Shown here: piece after piece, positions 58,069 through 64,000 of the stretch | How positions within the stretch are numbered: position 1 is the first letter of the stretch | Layout of the letters: the number at the start of each line of letters is the position of its first letter | Assembly (NCBI RefSeq): GCF_003544855.1 | Contig: NZ_CP032101.1 | Location: 62,001 to 126,000 of the forward strand | Direction of reading: 5' to 3' | Origin: Malaciobacter marinus | Lineage (GTDB): Bacteria > Campylobacterota > Campylobacteria > Campylobacterales > Arcobacteraceae | Length of the DNA stretch: 64,000 nt | Program-made: the position numbers and the translations under genes | Notes under the pieces: generated by a model | The model's input: the letters and a program-made list of their open reading frames with translations, nothing else | Told to the model about the DNA's origin: nothing | Databases searched by the model: none

Positions 58069-58145
58069 GCGTCTGTGGCTCAACTGGATAGAGCTCCCGG
58101 TTTCGGCCCGGGTGGTTGTGGGTTCGAATCCTACCAGGCGTACCA
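58069..58145 (+). tRNA. tRNA-Arg (anticodon TCG)
   Basis: All arms fold: acceptor GCGTCTG with CAGGCGT (two G-U pairs), D-stem GCTC/GAGC, anticodon stem CCCGG/CCGGG with loop TTTCGGC (anticodon TCG), and T-stem GTGGG/CCTAC with loop TTCGAAT. Discriminator A and an encoded CCA follow (58143-58145). It reads CGA and, by wobble, CGN codons. tRNA-Arg genes are common integration sites, and accessory genes begin right after it. Confidence 0.95.
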
Positions 58146-58243: not shown

Positions 58244-58465
58244 TTACTTTAATATTAAAAGATTATCAATACTAGTGTATTTGTTTAATAAAATATTTAA
58301 AAATATTATACTTTTTTCGTTATTGGTACAGTTGTACATTATTTTTGTAGGTAATTTTTTATATATTAATTTTTTTGTTTTGGTAAAAGAGATATATTCT
58401 GAATCTCCATTTGTGTATTCAATATAAATATCCTTTTCCATAATATCAATAAATTTTATTTCCAA
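58244..58465 (-). CDS. Hypothetical small protein (73 aa), doubtful
   Basis: This minus-strand ORF lies in the roughly 400-bp gap between the tRNA and the HTH-like gene. It starts at TTG; ATG at 58441 is an alternative. AAAGGAA occurs upstream but is too far away for the TTG. The translation, with TNGDSEYISFTKTKKLIYKKL, looks like a plausible small beta protein and does not match a family I know. Nothing else is seen in 58146-58547. Confidence 0.35.
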   Translation of the reverse strand: MEIKFIDIMEKDIYIEYTNGDSEYISFTKTKKLIYKKLPTKIMYNCTNNEKSIIFLNILLNKYTSIDNLLILK

Positions 58466-58547: not shown

Positions 58548-58721
58548 ATGACTAAAAAAGAGTTAGCTCACAGAATTAATGTTGATCCAAAAACTTTAAA
58601 AAACTGGGAAGAAACTAAACCCGAGCTTTTAAAACTTATTTATTTAGGACTTGCTACGGAAGAGCATATTAAAGATACTGAAGAGTATTTAAAAAAAATA
58701 AAAAGAAATACAGAAAGTTAA
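58548..58721 (+). CDS. Small helix-turn-helix-like protein (57 aa)
   Basis: The ORF encodes 57 residues starting MTKKELAHRINVDPKTLKNW, which reads like a short HTH (helix, turn with VDPKTLKNWE, recognition helix). The tail is lysine- and glutamate-rich, KDTEEYLKKIKRNTES. AGGAA lies 10 nt upstream. It ends 10 nt before the GIY-YIG gene on the same strand, so it may regulate the island operon. Its family is not certain. Confidence 0.6.
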   Translation: MTKKELAHRINVDPKTLKNWEETKPELLKLIYLGLATEEHIKDTEEYLKKIKRNTES

Positions 58722-58731
58722 TTTTAGTATC

Positions 58732-59334
58732 ATGATTCAAAAAGAAATATCTCATAGAAAACTTTATCCTAGAACTAGCAGTGTTTCTAATACTCCAGGC
58801 ATCTATGCTTGGTACTATGACTATAGAAAGTTAATAGATATTCTAAATATAGCTGCTCCAAGAAATACTATTATTGATACTTTTTTAAATGAATTAGAAA
58901 GTGTTTCTAAAAAAATAAAACTACCAACAGTAAAAGGAAATATAAAAGGAAAGCTAAATACAGAATATTCTTGTATTATCGATAACATTGACTATTTAAA
59001 AAGTAAATCATATCATGCAAAAATGGCATCAACAGATTTTGATATGCTTAAGGAAAGTATTTATGTACTACAAAACTATTCTGCACCTTTGTATATAGGG
59101 AAAGCTGTTAAGCAAACATTAAGAGAAAGATATAAACAACACATAAAAAACTATGATGATGCATCAACAGGGAAAAATAACAAAAATACATTTGGATACA
59201 GACTTTATGAAGTAGGTCTAACTCCTTCTGAATTAATTTTTAAGTATCATAGCCTAACTAATAGAGAGAATGAAATAGATATGATAGAACATATAATAAA
59301 TAGAATAACTAAACCTACACTAGGAGAAAGATAA
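58732..59334 (+). CDS. GIY-YIG nuclease with a large insertion, Eco29kI-like
   Basis: The 200-residue protein has GIY at 23-25 (TPGIYAWYYD) and YIG at 121-123 (APLYIGKAVKQTL). The two halves of the catalytic site are about 95 residues apart instead of the usual 10-30. Candidate catalytic residues are Y25, Y121, R131 and a glutamate near 180-187. PLYIGKA and the GIYA-YY segment resemble Eco29kI-type restriction enzymes. Its stop overlaps the DndB-like gene start by 1 nt (TAATG). A DNA-cleaving partner of the phosphorothioation system is likely but inferred. Confidence 0.82.
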   Translation: MIQKEISHRKLYPRTSSVSNTPGIYAWYYDYRKLIDILNIAAPRNTIIDTFLNELESVSKKIKLPTVKGNIKGKLNTEYSCIIDNIDYLKSKSYHAKMASTDFDMLKESIYVLQNYSAPLYIGKAVKQTLRERYKQHIKNYDDASTGKNNKNTFGYRLYEVGLTPSELIFKYHSLTNRENEIDMIEHIINRITKPTLGER

Positions 59335-61157
59335 TGAGCTTATTTTGTGCAAAAGAAAAAGAATGGGATATAAATAAAAAAGGTCATTCTGGTGTTTTTA
59401 AAACAAAAAATGATATATCTATTGAGTATATACAAACTACCTTTAACACAAAGGAACTAGATTTAATAAAACCTTTAAGAAGTATTTTTAACCCTGATGA
59501 TATTGAAGATTTTGATCTGTTATTACAAAGAGACTTAGATGAAACTAGAATTAAAAGAGAATTAATTCCTTATTTAAAAAGAGATGATAAACTAAGTTTT
59601 TTTCCTTCATTATTAGTTGTTGTACTGAACATTGAAAATAATGGAAGTGGAGCAATGATTAAACAACAATATCCACCACTTGATGAACAAATTATTGATA
59701 ACCCCGAGGATAATTCAGGAAATAGTAAAGTTAACTCCAAAAAATATGGTGACTTATTTAGTGTTGAAATCTTGGTTGATGAGAATGAAAAAAAACAACG
59801 ATGGTTTAGTATATTTAATTTTAATAGAAACACTCAATTATTAGCTATTGATGGACAACATCGGCTAGTAGCACTACAAGCAATTACTGGAAAACTTACA
59901 ACAGAAAGAGATAAAGAAAAGTTTTTGGCTTATTCTGATGAAAAAGAGTTATTTAATGATTTAGAAATTCCAGTAACAATTTTATATGTTCCTGATATGC
60001 ATCAAGGTACGGATGACAATAATGAACCATTAACAAGTATTTTTAGACAAGTTTTTGTGGATGTAAATAAGAATGCGATTACAGTAAGTAAAATGCGGAA
60101 TATTCTTTTAGATGAGAATGATTTTAATTCAATTTTTACGAGAATGATTTGTTCTGAAATATTAAAAAATACTAATTTAAATATTTCAATTAATGAAATT
60201 GAATGGAATAAAGAGCAAAAAGTAGATCAACTTACAGAAGAATTATCTATTACAAGTATTGTTTTTATAAAAAACTTTTTAGATAACTGGCTAGGAGATA
60301 TCAAAACGCTTGAGGATGATTGTCTCATAAAAGACAATCTACAATTATCAAAAATAAAAATAGATTTAGAAGATGAAACATTACCGTATGATGAAATGAC
60401 AAATAAAAAATTTACATATAATCAAAAAAATAAAATACTTGAATATTTTTCTGATAATTATTTAAATGGATTAATTATTTTAATTTGTTCTTTACCATTA
60501 TTTAATAAAAGACATGCCCATATAAAAGCTATCAAAAATGAATTAACTAATCAAATTGAGAATCATGAAAATATTGATGCTTCAAATGCATATAAATATT
60601 TATTTGGTGGAAATGAAAATAATATCTTATTAACTAAAGAATTAAATGCATATATTAAAAATACAATTATGAAAGATTTAATACAATTTGAAGATGAAAA
60701 TCACTATGAGCTTGTAAAAACACAAATGTTTCAAGTAATGTATTTTAAAATTGTTATTGATATTTACGCTGATCAAGAAGATATGGACTTTAATATTTTT
60801 TTAACAGAATATAATAAAATCATTAATGATATTGATTTTATAAATGCATGGAAAGATATTTTTGTTAATAAATACACTATTTTAAAAACAGGAATAGGTA
60901 ATTTTGGAAAAAATAAACAAAATCTAATATATGACTATCTTCAACTATTTATGAATAAACATAAAGATATTTTGAATAACGGTAAAATAAAATTTGAAGA
61001 ATATGATGTAAACATTAAATCAATATATACAAAATTTGAAGCAAACAAAATAAGAGAATTGGAAAAATTAGACTTAGATGAAGAACTTTACGAAAAACAG
61101 CTAGAAAATTATAAAAATCAATTAAAAGAAATTTATATTGAAGAAAATGTAGAGTAA
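59334..61157 (+). CDS. dndB: DGQHR-domain protein, DndB-like, extended
   Basis: The 607-residue protein has the DGQHR motif at 173-177 (LLAIDGQHRLVAL), preceded by FNFNRNTQ and followed by VNKNAITVSKMRNILLDEND. This is the DndB-type domain that binds DNA and represses the phosphorothioation operon. Usual DndB proteins have about 360 residues, so the N-terminal 150 and C-terminal 200 residues are extra. It is co-directional with the GIY-YIG gene and convergent with dndCDE. The symbol is by family and context. Confidence 0.8.
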   Translation: MSLFCAKEKEWDINKKGHSGVFKTKNDISIEYIQTTFNTKELDLIKPLRSIFNPDDIEDFDLLLQRDLDETRIKRELIPYLKRDDKLSFFPSLLVVVLNIENNGSGAMIKQQYPPLDEQIIDNPEDNSGNSKVNSKKYGDLFSVEILVDENEKKQRWFSIFNFNRNTQLLAIDGQHRLVALQAITGKLTTERDKEKFLAYSDEKELFNDLEIPVTILYVPDMHQGTDDNNEPLTSIFRQVFVDVNKNAITVSKMRNILLDENDFNSIFTRMICSEILKNTNLNISINEIEWNKEQKVDQLTEELSITSIVFIKNFLDNWLGDIKTLEDDCLIKDNLQLSKIKIDLEDETLPYDEMTNKKFTYNQKNKILEYFSDNYLNGLIILICSLPLFNKRHAHIKAIKNELTNQIENHENIDASNAYKYLFGGNENNILLTKELNAYIKNTIMKDLIQFEDENHYELVKTQMFQVMYFKIVIDIYADQEDMDFNIFLTEYNKIINDIDFINAWKDIFVNKYTILKTGIGNFGKNKQNLIYDYLQLFMNKHKDILNNGKIKFEEYDVNIKSIYTKFEANKIRELEKLDLDEELYEKQLENYKNQLKEIYIEENVE

Positions 61158-61191: not shown

Positions 61192-61575
61192 TTAAAAATC
61201 CTGCCCAATAAACTCAAAAATATTACTATCAGATTTTAGTGATGTTTTAAGTATCAAATAACCTCTTACGATATGTCGTTGGAGGTTTTCCTCTAGTTTC
61301 TTTTTTGATGTAATAGTAATATTATCAAAAACTTCAATCATATCCCAAAAAAGTTTTGTATAGTCTTCGCTCTCTTTTCCTTCACCTGTTATTTGTACCA
61401 GTCTATACTCTTTGCCATCATAATTTGGAACATCTATATCTTTAAACTCCTTTTCTAATGATAGCGATATATTTATCATAAATCTAAGGATTACCCATTT
61501 GGGTTCATTTTCAAGGTTTAGCATTTTTGATAAGGGATAAAGATATTGTTCTATTTCTTGTGTTGTTTTTATCAT
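61192..61575 (-). CDS. dndE: DNA phosphorothioation protein DndE
   Basis: The 127-residue mostly helical protein follows dndD with a 4-nt overlap. Lengths, helices (KWVILRFMINISLSLEKEF, about 26-44) and order match DndE, which binds nicked DNA and helps sulfur exchange in the backbone. Conservation is low in this family, so order carries much of the call. Only 34 bp separate it from the convergent dndB-like gene, with no clear terminator. Confidence 0.82.
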   Translation of the reverse strand: MIKTTQEIEQYLYPLSKMLNLENEPKWVILRFMINISLSLEKEFKDIDVPNYDGKEYRLVQITGEGKESEDYTKLFWDMIEVFDNITITSKKKLEENLQRHIVRGYLILKTSLKSDSNIFEFIGQDF

Positions 61576-63323
61576 GTTATTTCCTCTATATTCGACCCTA
61601 AATCATTTCTTTTGATTTGGTATGTTTTATAGTTGAGATTTTGAGTTTTTACAAAATCATATTCACTATCTGTTAGTAGTAAAATTAGATTTTCAAAAGA
61701 TAAATAACAAGAGTTAAGTAAAAGCTCTTTATTTTTATTTGAAAGTCTTCCAAATGGAGTATCTACCATTACAAATGATGCAAAATTTTTAAAATCTAAA
61801 ATCGTCTTAACTATCAAAAAGTTTAATATTTGTTTTTGACCTGCTGAAAGTAATTTAGTACTTAACTTCTCTTCTTTTTTATCTGTGATTATTATATTGT
61901 GATTATCATTGATAAATATATTACTTATATGGTCATATTGTTTTAAAAACCGTGATGTATTTTCTTTTAGTTTCTCATTAAAGATTGAAAGTTCTTTTTC
62001 TAATCTTTTATTATAAACTCGGGCACTTACTTTTGAAATAATCTGTAACTCTTCATATCCTTTTATAAATGCATATTTGTGTTGATTTTCTTTAAATGCT
62101 TGAGTTAAAGTTTTATTTATCTCTTTTGATTTTATAGTATTTGATTCGATTTTATCTTTTAATTCTTGAATATATTTATCAAGTACATTTAGTTCTTCTT
62201 CTTGTAAATCTCTTGATTCTACTAAAGAACGCATCATTTCTTGTTCCATTATTGAGTCTTGTGCTATTTTAATCTTTTCTTCTATTTGAACAGTTATAAG
62301 TTTTAAGTCTTTCATCTCTTCAATAAGTTTTTTAAAATCATTGTTAGACATTGAAAGTTGAATTTTTGGTGAATTGTTAATCATAGTTGATTTAAATAGT
62401 TCTAAAATTTTATTTTCTTCAAGTGGTGAATTTATTTCTTGAATAAACTTGTGAAACTTATTTGAAAAAAGTGATTCATCTTCTATTTTTAAAGCACTAG
62501 AAGTTCTATCTTGTATACCATTAAATATTCTTTTATTCAAAAGCAAAGGCATCTGCCAAAGAATAATCTCTTTTAATTTCGATGCCTTTTCATCAAGTAT
62601 TGCTTTTGTTTTATCTAATTCTTCATGTAGTTTATTGACCTTTTTACTCTTATTTCTTATTTGAGTATTTGATTTTTGTAAATTCATTTTTTGAATTTTA
62701 AACTCTTTTTCTTTTTCTATTAACTCTTCTTTTTGATTTGATATTAAGTCCAATATATCCAATCTTTGATTTTCAAGAACTAGAAGTTCTTTTGTAGAGT
62801 CATCATTATTTTTTTCAAGTAATCTTTTTGAAACTGCTTGTGAGTCCTTTTGAGTGTTTACTAAAAGATCTAAATCAAATATATAATCAAATATTGATTT
62901 TAGTTTTATATTTGATAATAAAAGTAAATTATTACCTATCTCACCATCATAAAATAAAAAATCAATCAAAAACTCAGGTATTTTATTCTGAATAAAATGT
63001 TCTGCTTCATCATCTTCATATTTCTCACCATCTTTTAATATAACTGAAAGTGACTCTTCAAATTTAGAAGTAAAATTCCAAGTCCTTTTAATATTAAACT
63101 CATCAAAATCAAGATTTACCCAACATTTTTTTTCTTCTGCATTATTATTAAGTACAGAATCAATATCTATTTTTGATTGACCTAAACATAATTTGATAGA
63201 ATTTAGAATTGATGTTTTACCATACCCATTAGCTCCTATTATGCATGAGATATTATTAAATAATATACTATTTGTTCCATGATAAGAGAACATATTGTTC
63301 AATGTGATACTAGTTAGTTTCAC
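61572..63323 (-). CDS. dndD: DNA phosphorothioation ATPase DndD
   Basis: The SMC/RecF-like ATPase has about 583 residues. It has Walker A GANGYGKTS near the N-terminus (about 30-38), a long coiled coil (about 150-470), the signature LLSAGQKQILN and Walker B FVMVDTPFGRLS. It supports sulfur insertion or DNA nicking by the Dnd complex. I chose GTG at 63323 because AAAGGAG lies 6-7 nt upstream; ATG at 63350 lies deeper in dndC and has no such site. It overlaps dndC by 14 nt and dndE by 4 nt. Confidence 0.9.
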   Translation of the reverse strand: MKLTSITLNNMFSYHGTNSILFNNISCIIGANGYGKTSILNSIKLCLGQSKIDIDSVLNNNAEEKKCWVNLDFDEFNIKRTWNFTSKFEESLSVILKDGEKYEDDEAEHFIQNKIPEFLIDFLFYDGEIGNNLLLLSNIKLKSIFDYIFDLDLLVNTQKDSQAVSKRLLEKNNDDSTKELLVLENQRLDILDLISNQKEELIEKEKEFKIQKMNLQKSNTQIRNKSKKVNKLHEELDKTKAILDEKASKLKEIILWQMPLLLNKRIFNGIQDRTSSALKIEDESLFSNKFHKFIQEINSPLEENKILELFKSTMINNSPKIQLSMSNNDFKKLIEEMKDLKLITVQIEEKIKIAQDSIMEQEMMRSLVESRDLQEEELNVLDKYIQELKDKIESNTIKSKEINKTLTQAFKENQHKYAFIKGYEELQIISKVSARVYNKRLEKELSIFNEKLKENTSRFLKQYDHISNIFINDNHNIIITDKKEEKLSTKLLSAGQKQILNFLIVKTILDFKNFASFVMVDTPFGRLSNKNKELLLNSCYLSFENLILLLTDSEYDFVKTQNLNYKTYQIKRNDLGSNIEEIT

Positions 63324-64000
63324 GAAACTCTCCTTTATAGAAGTCAACAACTCTTTTTTCTATATCATTTAATACACCATATCTATTTGATATGTTTTTT
63401 CTATAAGCTTGAATCTCATGAATCCTTTCAAATAAATCAATGTTAAAATTCTCTTCATCTAAGACTTCTAAGTCTTCTCTTAATTCAGTTTTTACAGGTT
63501 TATTTAGCAATTTATCAAATTTTTGAGCTATTCTATATGCAGTATTTGAAATATCACCATCTTTATTCCAGTTTTCTTGAATCAATTCAATCTCTTCATC
63601 TTTGATTAAAGCAATTTTTTCACTTGGATTATAATCAGCATCGTTTATTTTCATAGAATGATAATTTTCATTTACTTTAACTTCTGTTTTAAGTAAATCT
63701 TCTAAAAGTTCTTTTCTTGTTTCCATTAAAAATGGTCCAGCCCCCACTTGACCACTTCTTCTTCTTGTATCTCTTTTCTCTAAATCGTTTCTATATGTAT
63801 ATATTTTTTCTCTATAATGCCAAAGTGGACTCATCCACTCTTCACCATTTTTAAGCATCCCTTCCATTGAACGGTCACTTTCAACAACGGTACAAACCCA
63901 ACAACCAAACCTAGTTTTTCCACAAGTTGCCGCATCAGGATGTAATGCAATATTGCAATCAGCTTCACCTGAACCTTTGTCATATAAGCTCATCATATAA
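63310..64000 (-). CDS. dndC: DNA phosphorothioation protein DndC, N-terminus outside window
   Basis: The frame is open to the right edge. It encodes at least 230 C-terminal residues of DndC, a PAPS-reductase-fold ATP pyrophosphatase with an Fe-S cluster. The cysteine set TCGKTRFGCWVCTVVESDRS is the DndC hallmark, and RRSGQVGAGPFLMETRKELL is typical of the C-terminal part. It supplies or activates sulfur for backbone phosphorothioation. The catalytic SGGKDS region is not visible here. Confidence 0.92.
   Translation of the reverse strand, partial: YMMSLYDKGSGEADCNIALHPDAATCGKTRFGCWVCTVVESDRSMEGMLKNGEEWMSPLWHYREKIYTYRNDLEKRDTRRRSGQVGAGPFLMETRKELLEDLLKTEVKVNENYHSMKINDADYNPSEKIALIKDEEIELIQENWNKDGDISNTAYRIAQKFDKLLNKPVKTELREDLEVLDEENFNIDLFERIHEIQAYRKNISNRYGVLNDIEKRVVDFYKGEFRETN

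Follow-up and report, generated by a model that had tools for sequence, protein, structure and literature searches.

A long-gap GIY-YIG nuclease and its DGQHR partner as a candidate two-gene effector beside phosphorothioation genes in Malaciobacter marinus

Known phosphorothioate (PT) modification systems include IscS-DndBCDE-DndI (PMC11662687) and SspABCD-SspE (PMC9646914, PMC13251355), in which the PT genes are accompanied by an effector joining a ParB/Srx NTPase (motif DGQQR) to a nuclease; an arrangement of this kind is proposed here. In SspE and DndI, a P-x-Y-Q patch senses PT, and the arginine of DGQQR is needed for NTP hydrolysis (PMC11662687, PMC9646914, PMC13251355). One study treats SspE as the Ssp equivalent of DndB (PMC10853773). 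GmrSD (PMC4619093) also consists of a ParB/Srx NTPase and a nuclease, encoded by one gene or two, but it combines DUF262 with HNH, acts as a modification-dependent Type IV system and has no link to PT genes. A QR pair, DGQHR and FxxxN together characterize both the DGQHR domain and GmrS, for which a ParB/sulfiredoxin fold has been predicted (PMC4619093). Known restriction parts are missing from 83.9% of 2,678 sspBCD loci (PMC8092258); many dnd loci are without them as well, namely those of 2,610 among the 3,416 taxa that have a Dnd-linked endonuclease (PMC10853773).

The presence of GIY-YIG (URI) genes at the borders of Dnd loci has already been reported, and Rakesh, Aravind and Krishnan proposed a suicide back-up role for such standalone nucleases (PMC10853773). 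The main text of that work does not include a long-gap family, a DGQHR partner, occurrence with ssp genes or slot exchange, and its supplement may list such genes. Our literature search for a GIY-YIG gene paired with DGQHR/DndB, or with SspB/sspBCD, found no description in the papers covered. What looks new, and is described below, is the long-gap family together with its DGQHR partner, its association with ssp genes and the exchange of cassettes in one slot.

The dnd island and its variable slot

The window, a stretch of 64,000 nucleotides of the M. marinus genome (NZ_CP032101.1, positions 62,001 to 126,000), ends in an island with the following features:

58069..58145, + strand: tRNA-Arg (TCG), left island border (ARAGORN)
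58244..58465, - strand: 73-aa ORF, conserved left flank of the variable slot (65-68% identical copies in loci L027, L028 and L038)
58548..58721, + strand: 57-aa helix-turn-helix (HTH) protein, first gene of the putative effector operon and candidate controller (weak HTH matches)
58732..59334, + strand: long-gap GIY-YIG nuclease, 200 aa (intact ORF, ATG start)
59334..61157, + strand: long DGQHR protein, 607 aa, predicted ParB/Srx-fold NTPase (PF14072, 4.8e-8)
61192..61575, - strand: dndE (PF08870, 2.3e-9)
61572..63350, - strand: dndD (TIGR03185, 2.4e-22; PADLOC DndD, 2.3e-25)
63310..64000, - strand: dndC, 3′ part (TIGR03183, 1e-30; 442 aa in all)

The nuclease and DGQHR genes overlap by 1 nt (TAATG), and dndCDE run on the opposite strand; a sequence-only reading of the window had described both the coupling and this orientation correctly. 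The dndC gene extends 638 bases beyond the window, its 5′ end lying at about 64638, and is complete in L002:7311-8639. It is followed by a gene for a CBS-domain protein and then by ordinary chromosomal functions; an attachment-site repeat of the tRNA-Arg 3′ end was not found beyond dndC.

The same reading noted that DndFGH is not in the window, and for DndH this extends genome-wide: TIGR03237 has no match in the complete host genome and scores >1000 bits in three relatives serving as positive controls (G112, G239 and G272). A 1678-aa DndH protein used as query gave the same result for G112 and G272. The host genome also contains a DUF262-HNH gene (L050:877-2999, at about 2,197,373), located 2.1 Mb away, with no PT genes beside it; its neighbours encode a DNA methyltransferase-like protein and a tyrosine recombinase (integrase).

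Close relatives of this dndCDE set occur in five other Campylobacterota genomes, and a GTDB scan added five further contigs. In the window, L027, L028 and L038, the 73-aa ORF (65-68%) and the HTH gene bound the slot at one end and dndE (80-89%) at the opposite end, while the cassette between the HTH gene and dndE differs in each of the four loci. It consists of the GIY-YIG and DGQHR genes in the window; a membrane protein with a DUF262 protein, and an MNT/HEPN pair, in L027; a ParB-like protein with a protein that is PD-(D/E)XK-like by eye in L028; and DUF262-HNH, GHKL and Methyltransf_35 genes in L038. The HTH protein is 77-88% identical in L027, L028 and L038, and 48-50% in L026 and L040. 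The DUF262-HNH protein that occupies the homologous slot of L038 (GmrSD_N 5e-33, GmrSD_C 2e-23) has the DndI/SspE architecture, and DUF262-HNH genes adjoin dnd genes also in L020, L025 and L043. Varied cassettes at a fixed place are what effector exchange would look like.

Several related dnd loci deserve separate mention. A near-identical MNT/HEPN toxin-antitoxin pair lies beside dndE in two different genomes (L026:10861-11506 and L027:7053-7698) and is probably mobile within dnd loci. In L029:8589-10695, next to related dndCDE, genes for a GHKL ATPase and for a small GIY-YIG-like protein with ordinary spacing (VYFIIKENCIYIG) overlap and run convergently towards dndE; a Pfam search with the small protein gave no match. 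After the related dndCDE genes of L030:5850-12618, and in the same orientation, come two Dam-like methyltransferases flanking a restriction-like protein: a methylation system joined to dnd genes. L040, a 4.3-kb contig titled as a Flavobacteriaceae MAG, carries dndCDE 61-81% identical to those of the window and is probably either a mis-binned Campylobacterota contig or a recent transfer.

The nuclease, its family and its predicted active site

The nuclease ORF contains the following elements:

58798..58815, + strand: first half-motif G-I-Y-A-W-Y, residues 23-28 (G23, Y25, A26, W27 and Y28 invariant)
58825..59082, + strand: variable segment between the half-motifs, residues 32-117, candidate insert for specificity or docking
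59086..59100, + strand: second half-motif P-L-Y-I-G, residues 119-123 (P119, Y121, I122 and G123 invariant)
59128..59142, + strand: predicted catalytic R133-x3-H137 (invariant; spacing equal to R104-x3-H108 of Eco29kI)
59287..59325, + strand: predicted metal ligand E186 through G198 (Gly replaces the usual Asn; spacing as E142-N154 of Eco29kI)

The spacing from GIY to YIG is about 10 residues in UvrC and I-TevI. In the window ORF, GIY (residues 23-25) and YIG (121-123) have 95 residues between them. Ordinary profiles match it below their curated cut-offs (Pfam GIY_YIG_2, 19.5 vs 22.4; Pfam GIY-YIG, 17.7 vs 22.6), and the latter puts the first half-motif on SIY at residues ~109-111, so the long gap needed testing.

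At E 0.01, tblastn with the nuclease gave no match in plasmids, phages, genome contigs, viral contigs or 104 relatives; the family was reached through the DGQHR partner and by tblastn at E 10, PT genes not being used as bait. The partner matched seven plasmid records. The permissive nuclease search returned a Nonomuraea match at E 3 directly beside the partner's match, accepted only because of this adjacency; it was later confirmed by a comparison of the Asticcacaulis and Nonomuraea proteins (2e-5) and by an independent profile. Proteins of the same layout were found upstream of other partner matches, in Geminocystis and as an unannotated Asticcacaulis ORF, and further members come from Trichormus (two plasmids) and a second Asticcacaulis plasmid. 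A profile built from six sequences other than that of the window retrieved the window ORF at E 6.8e-10, with no other of the 766 ORFs searched below E 0.25. A four-row profile gave one match in 296 genomes of another phylum, chosen around a Flavobacteriaceae MAG: a partial family member (G669) within an ssp locus. In viral contigs, the family GIY profile had no match and the family DGQHR profile had two; GIY_YIG_2 matched once across 397 genomes of the host phylum, in an unrelated protein. The sample is small, about eight loci. The family is diverged and mostly unannotated, with the conserved catalytic residues Y, Y, R, H and E and a long spacing.

Some members have unusual gene structures. 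On the Asticcacaulis excentricus plasmid pASTEX02 (L035:7340-7999) the nuclease starts with GTG and is unannotated, and it is annotated in strain DW145. In plasmid A of Trichormus variabilis ATCC 29413, an in-frame TAG (L046:9154-9156) lies between the half-motifs, directly followed by ATG; the annotations of ATCC 29413 and of strain 0441 list two hypothetical proteins, and the gene is either an inactivated copy or encodes a two-piece protein. In an ssp locus (L049:6743-8758), a masked 2-kb stretch of N, the size of a DGQHR gene, directly follows the partial nuclease gene.

The two tyrosines are 96 residues apart in the window protein and 69-116 in the family (68-115 residues between the motifs). 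Residues G23, Y25, A26, W27, Y28, P119, Y121, I122, G123, R133, H137, E186, P195 and G198 are invariant in the full-length members, and GxY-[AS]-W is present in 7/7 members, the partial G669 protein included. In the family alignment none of the 86 columns of the inter-motif segment is invariant, the flanking parts having 5 of 31 and 11 of 83, and SIY at ~109-111 is not conserved. The sequence-only reading had thus placed GIY correctly, and the unusually long gap it reported is borne out. The insert, raised in that reading as a possible DNA-recognition domain, has no invariant residue and is a candidate specificity or docking element. An AlphaFold2 model computed without homologues was of low confidence (mean pLDDT 35), and the GIY profile, run against PDB sequences, matched only below threshold and at YIG (T4 endonuclease II 0.08, UvrC 0.1).

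The half-motifs and the conserved Arg and Glu that define the superfamily occur in the expected order (Y25, Y121, R133, E186), and the short GIY-YIG spacing does not. Eco29kI also has a longer spacing within the superfamily, so that of the window represents a variant rather than grounds for exclusion. The active site of R.Eco29kI comprises Y49, Y76, R104, H108, E142 and N154, all backed by mutations except Y76 (PMC1952068). These positions correspond to Y25, Y121, R133, H137, E186 and G198 of the window nuclease, which retains five of the six residues; every full-length member has Gly where Eco29kI has Asn. The two share residue order and part of the spacing (GVYA...PIYVG...R-x3-H...E-x11-(N/G)): R and H are 4 apart in the window, Nonomuraea, Asticcacaulis and G669 fragment sequences and 5 apart in cyanobacteria, and the distance from Glu to the last residue is exactly 12 in all six full-length members. 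The Eco29kI-like segments noticed earlier are thus real at the level of motifs (residue order, R-H and Glu spacing), the Pfam RE_Eco29kI match itself being weak (E 0.25; 11.6 vs a cut-off of 30.8 bits). However, the Tyr-Tyr distance is 27 in Eco29kI vs 69-116 in the long-gap family, which also differs by the Asn-to-Gly replacement, the lack of a methyltransferase partner and an RE_Eco29kI score far under the cut-off. As the N154L variant of Eco29kI retains ~10% activity (PMC1952068), nuclease activity of the Gly-bearing window protein is plausible, not assured.

The DGQHR partner and recurrence of the pair

Three motifs stand out in the 607-aa protein:

59526..59531, + strand: QR pair Q65-R66 (invariant; motif-aligned with P-x-Y-Q-R of SspE and DndI)
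59850..59864, + strand: DGQHR motif, residues 173-177 (invariant in the DGQHR family alignment)
60054..60068, + strand: FxxxN motif F241...N245 (invariant in the DGQHR family alignment)

The protein scores over the cut-off of PF14072 (32.9 vs 29.1) and under that of TIGR03187 (34.4 vs 58.85 bits), and the DndB equivalog TIGR03233 does not match it at E<=1. Nonomuraea encodes a true DndB (TIGR03233, 538 bits) in the usual place before dndC and, separately, a long DGQHR protein adjoining the nuclease; the co-occurrence of the two indicates that their roles differ. We therefore rejected the identification of the 607-aa protein as DndB. The earlier label "DndB-like" is accurate for the DGQHR domain and fails for the protein as a whole, a distinct and longer one unmatched by TIGR03233. 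Long DGQHR proteins share the DGQHR core, the QR pair and FxxxN with DndB, but they are 607-778 aa long vs ~360-390 aa, are paired with a nuclease, and coexist with true DndB in Nonomuraea.

Profile comparison with hhalign gave 93.5% between the long DGQHR family and true DndB over the DGQHR core, 3.6% with DUF262 (not significant) and 0.1% for a negative control. Pfam searches detected no DUF262 (GmrSD_N) match in the 607-aa protein and no HNH (DUF1524) domain in either protein of the pair. The Gln and Arg positions of the SspE/DndI patch are conserved in the long DGQHR family and the PT-sensing Tyr is replaced by Leu or Met (L64-Q65-R66 in the window). A PDB sequence search with the DGQHR profile found no match, and the AlphaFold2 model was of low confidence (mean pLDDT 36). 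The long DGQHR protein is predicted to be a ParB/Srx-fold NTPase related to DndB and, more remotely, to the NTPase halves of SspE and DndI; it probably forms an effector together with the nuclease. Unlike DndI and SspE, which are single effectors, the window has two separate genes; its NTPase belongs to the DGQHR/DndB branch, not DUF262, its nuclease is GIY-YIG, not HNH, and the PT-sensing Tyr gives way to Leu or Met.

A long DGQHR gene directly follows that of the nuclease in the window, Nonomuraea, Geminocystis, two Trichormus plasmids and two Asticcacaulis plasmids, with a gap of -1 to +3 nt at the loci read at base level (2-3 nt in Nonomuraea). Pairwise identities of the GIY and DGQHR proteins rise in parallel, and the two stay paired in four phyla, at 21-25% identity. 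Long DGQHR genes need not have this nuclease beside them: Cyanobacterium HL-69 lacks it, and an actinomycete contig (L051) has a GHKL ATPase in its place. That contig (IMG/VR, L051:6014-13486) encodes true dndBCDE, then an MzaB-like GHKL ATPase, the long DGQHR protein and an Mrr-like nuclease, followed by a second DGQHR protein and one resembling HNH enzymes, which makes a further set of effectors beside dnd genes.

All of the approximately eight loci with a long-gap nuclease contain dnd or ssp genes. The recurrence beside dnd genes of other genomes that the sequence-only reading called for is seen in Nonomuraea (dndA, dndB, dndC and the PT-associated methyltransferase TIGR04096), and on plasmids the pair also stands beside ssp genes. 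The Trichormus and Geminocystis loci combine ssp-type genes with those for a helicase, a GHKL ATPase and a PLD protein. In Asticcacaulis the genes run GIY, DGQHR, cysteine desulfurase, DUF4007 (SspB), SspC-type ATPase and PAPS-reductase-like SspD, an operon of the form nuclease-DGQHR-sspABCD; no SspE or SspFGH is annotated in the stretch read.

Proposed effector and alternative explanations

We hypothesize that the DGQHR NTPase and the GIY-YIG nuclease constitute an exchangeable two-gene, PT-linked effector resembling a split DndI or SspE, and consider this reading reasonably likely. It starts from features present in the sequences (the pair, its conservation and coupling, the PT-gene context, slot exchange, DndH absence and motifs), from which we infer all of the biochemistry, also how PT is sensed and in which direction it gates. 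DndCDE would mark the cell's own DNA with PT, a housekeeping cysteine desulfurase donating the sulfur. The DGQHR protein would sense the mark, coupling sensing to NTP turnover at DGQHR (R177), and would thereby gate the nuclease, which could cut or nick DNA via Y25, Y121, R133, H137 and E186; unmarked phage or plasmid DNA would be attacked and marked DNA spared. Gating could run either way, since PT inhibits DndI and activates SspE. The 57-aa HTH protein may tune expression, like the controller protein of a restriction system, and the module in its exchangeable slot would serve PT systems of the dsDNA type (Dnd) as well as those of the ssDNA type (Ssp).

The sequence-only reading had suggested a restriction or defence effector of the PT system. 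Its position beside dnd and ssp genes and the absence of DndH agree with this, the partner is not the DndB that was supposed, and the function stays putative. We give an even chance to the broader proposal that a DGQHR NTPase with a long-insert GIY-YIG nuclease, occurring with Dnd or Ssp and using a non-Tyr PT reader, is a new class of PT-dependent effector and a missing partner of orphan dnd/ssp loci.

The main rival to the split-effector reading is a back-up suicide role, in which the nuclease is freed when a phage blocks Dnd and then destroys host DNA. As with the URI nucleases of PMC10853773, the GIY-YIG gene lies at the border of the dnd locus and is read from the other strand, and it has its own HTH gene and its own operon. 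However, it is not standalone but coupled to the DGQHR partner, the Asticcacaulis nuclease heads an ssp operon with no other annotated effector there, and DndH is absent from the host genome; we regard this role as unlikely.

Considerably less probable is a combination of regulator and nuclease, where the DGQHR protein represses or limits PT modification like DndB and an independent nuclease is co-transcribed by chance. Public records do annotate the DGQHR proteins as DndB, and the hhalign result over the DGQHR core points the same way. Against this, Nonomuraea has a true DndB besides, the partner is 1.5-2 times longer than DndB, and the nuclease pairing persists at 21-25% identity in four phyla. 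Slightly weaker again is an unlinked passenger, a self-contained restriction-like cassette within the dnd defence island that makes no use of PT marks. Defence genes do cluster, and many unrelated cassettes can occupy the slot, some of which bring methyltransferases of their own (L030), but all nuclease loci adjoin PT-modification genes even though these were not the bait, and neither the window nor Asticcacaulis has a methyltransferase beside the nuclease. Least credible is a misread gap, with SIY at ~109-111 as the true first half-motif of a compact GIY-YIG domain bearing an N-terminal extension: the Pfam GIY-YIG alignment does start at residue 109 and both AlphaFold2 models are of low confidence, but SIY is unconserved and GxY-[AS]-W occurs in all seven members, including partial G669, and we rejected it.

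On the split-effector reading, the pair is a small, testable candidate for acting on unmarked DNA that spans both types of PT modification. Judging from our comparison, some database entries now called "DndB" may well be partners of a nuclease and not regulators. If the proposal is true, PT systems would treat their effectors as exchangeable cassettes in a common slot.
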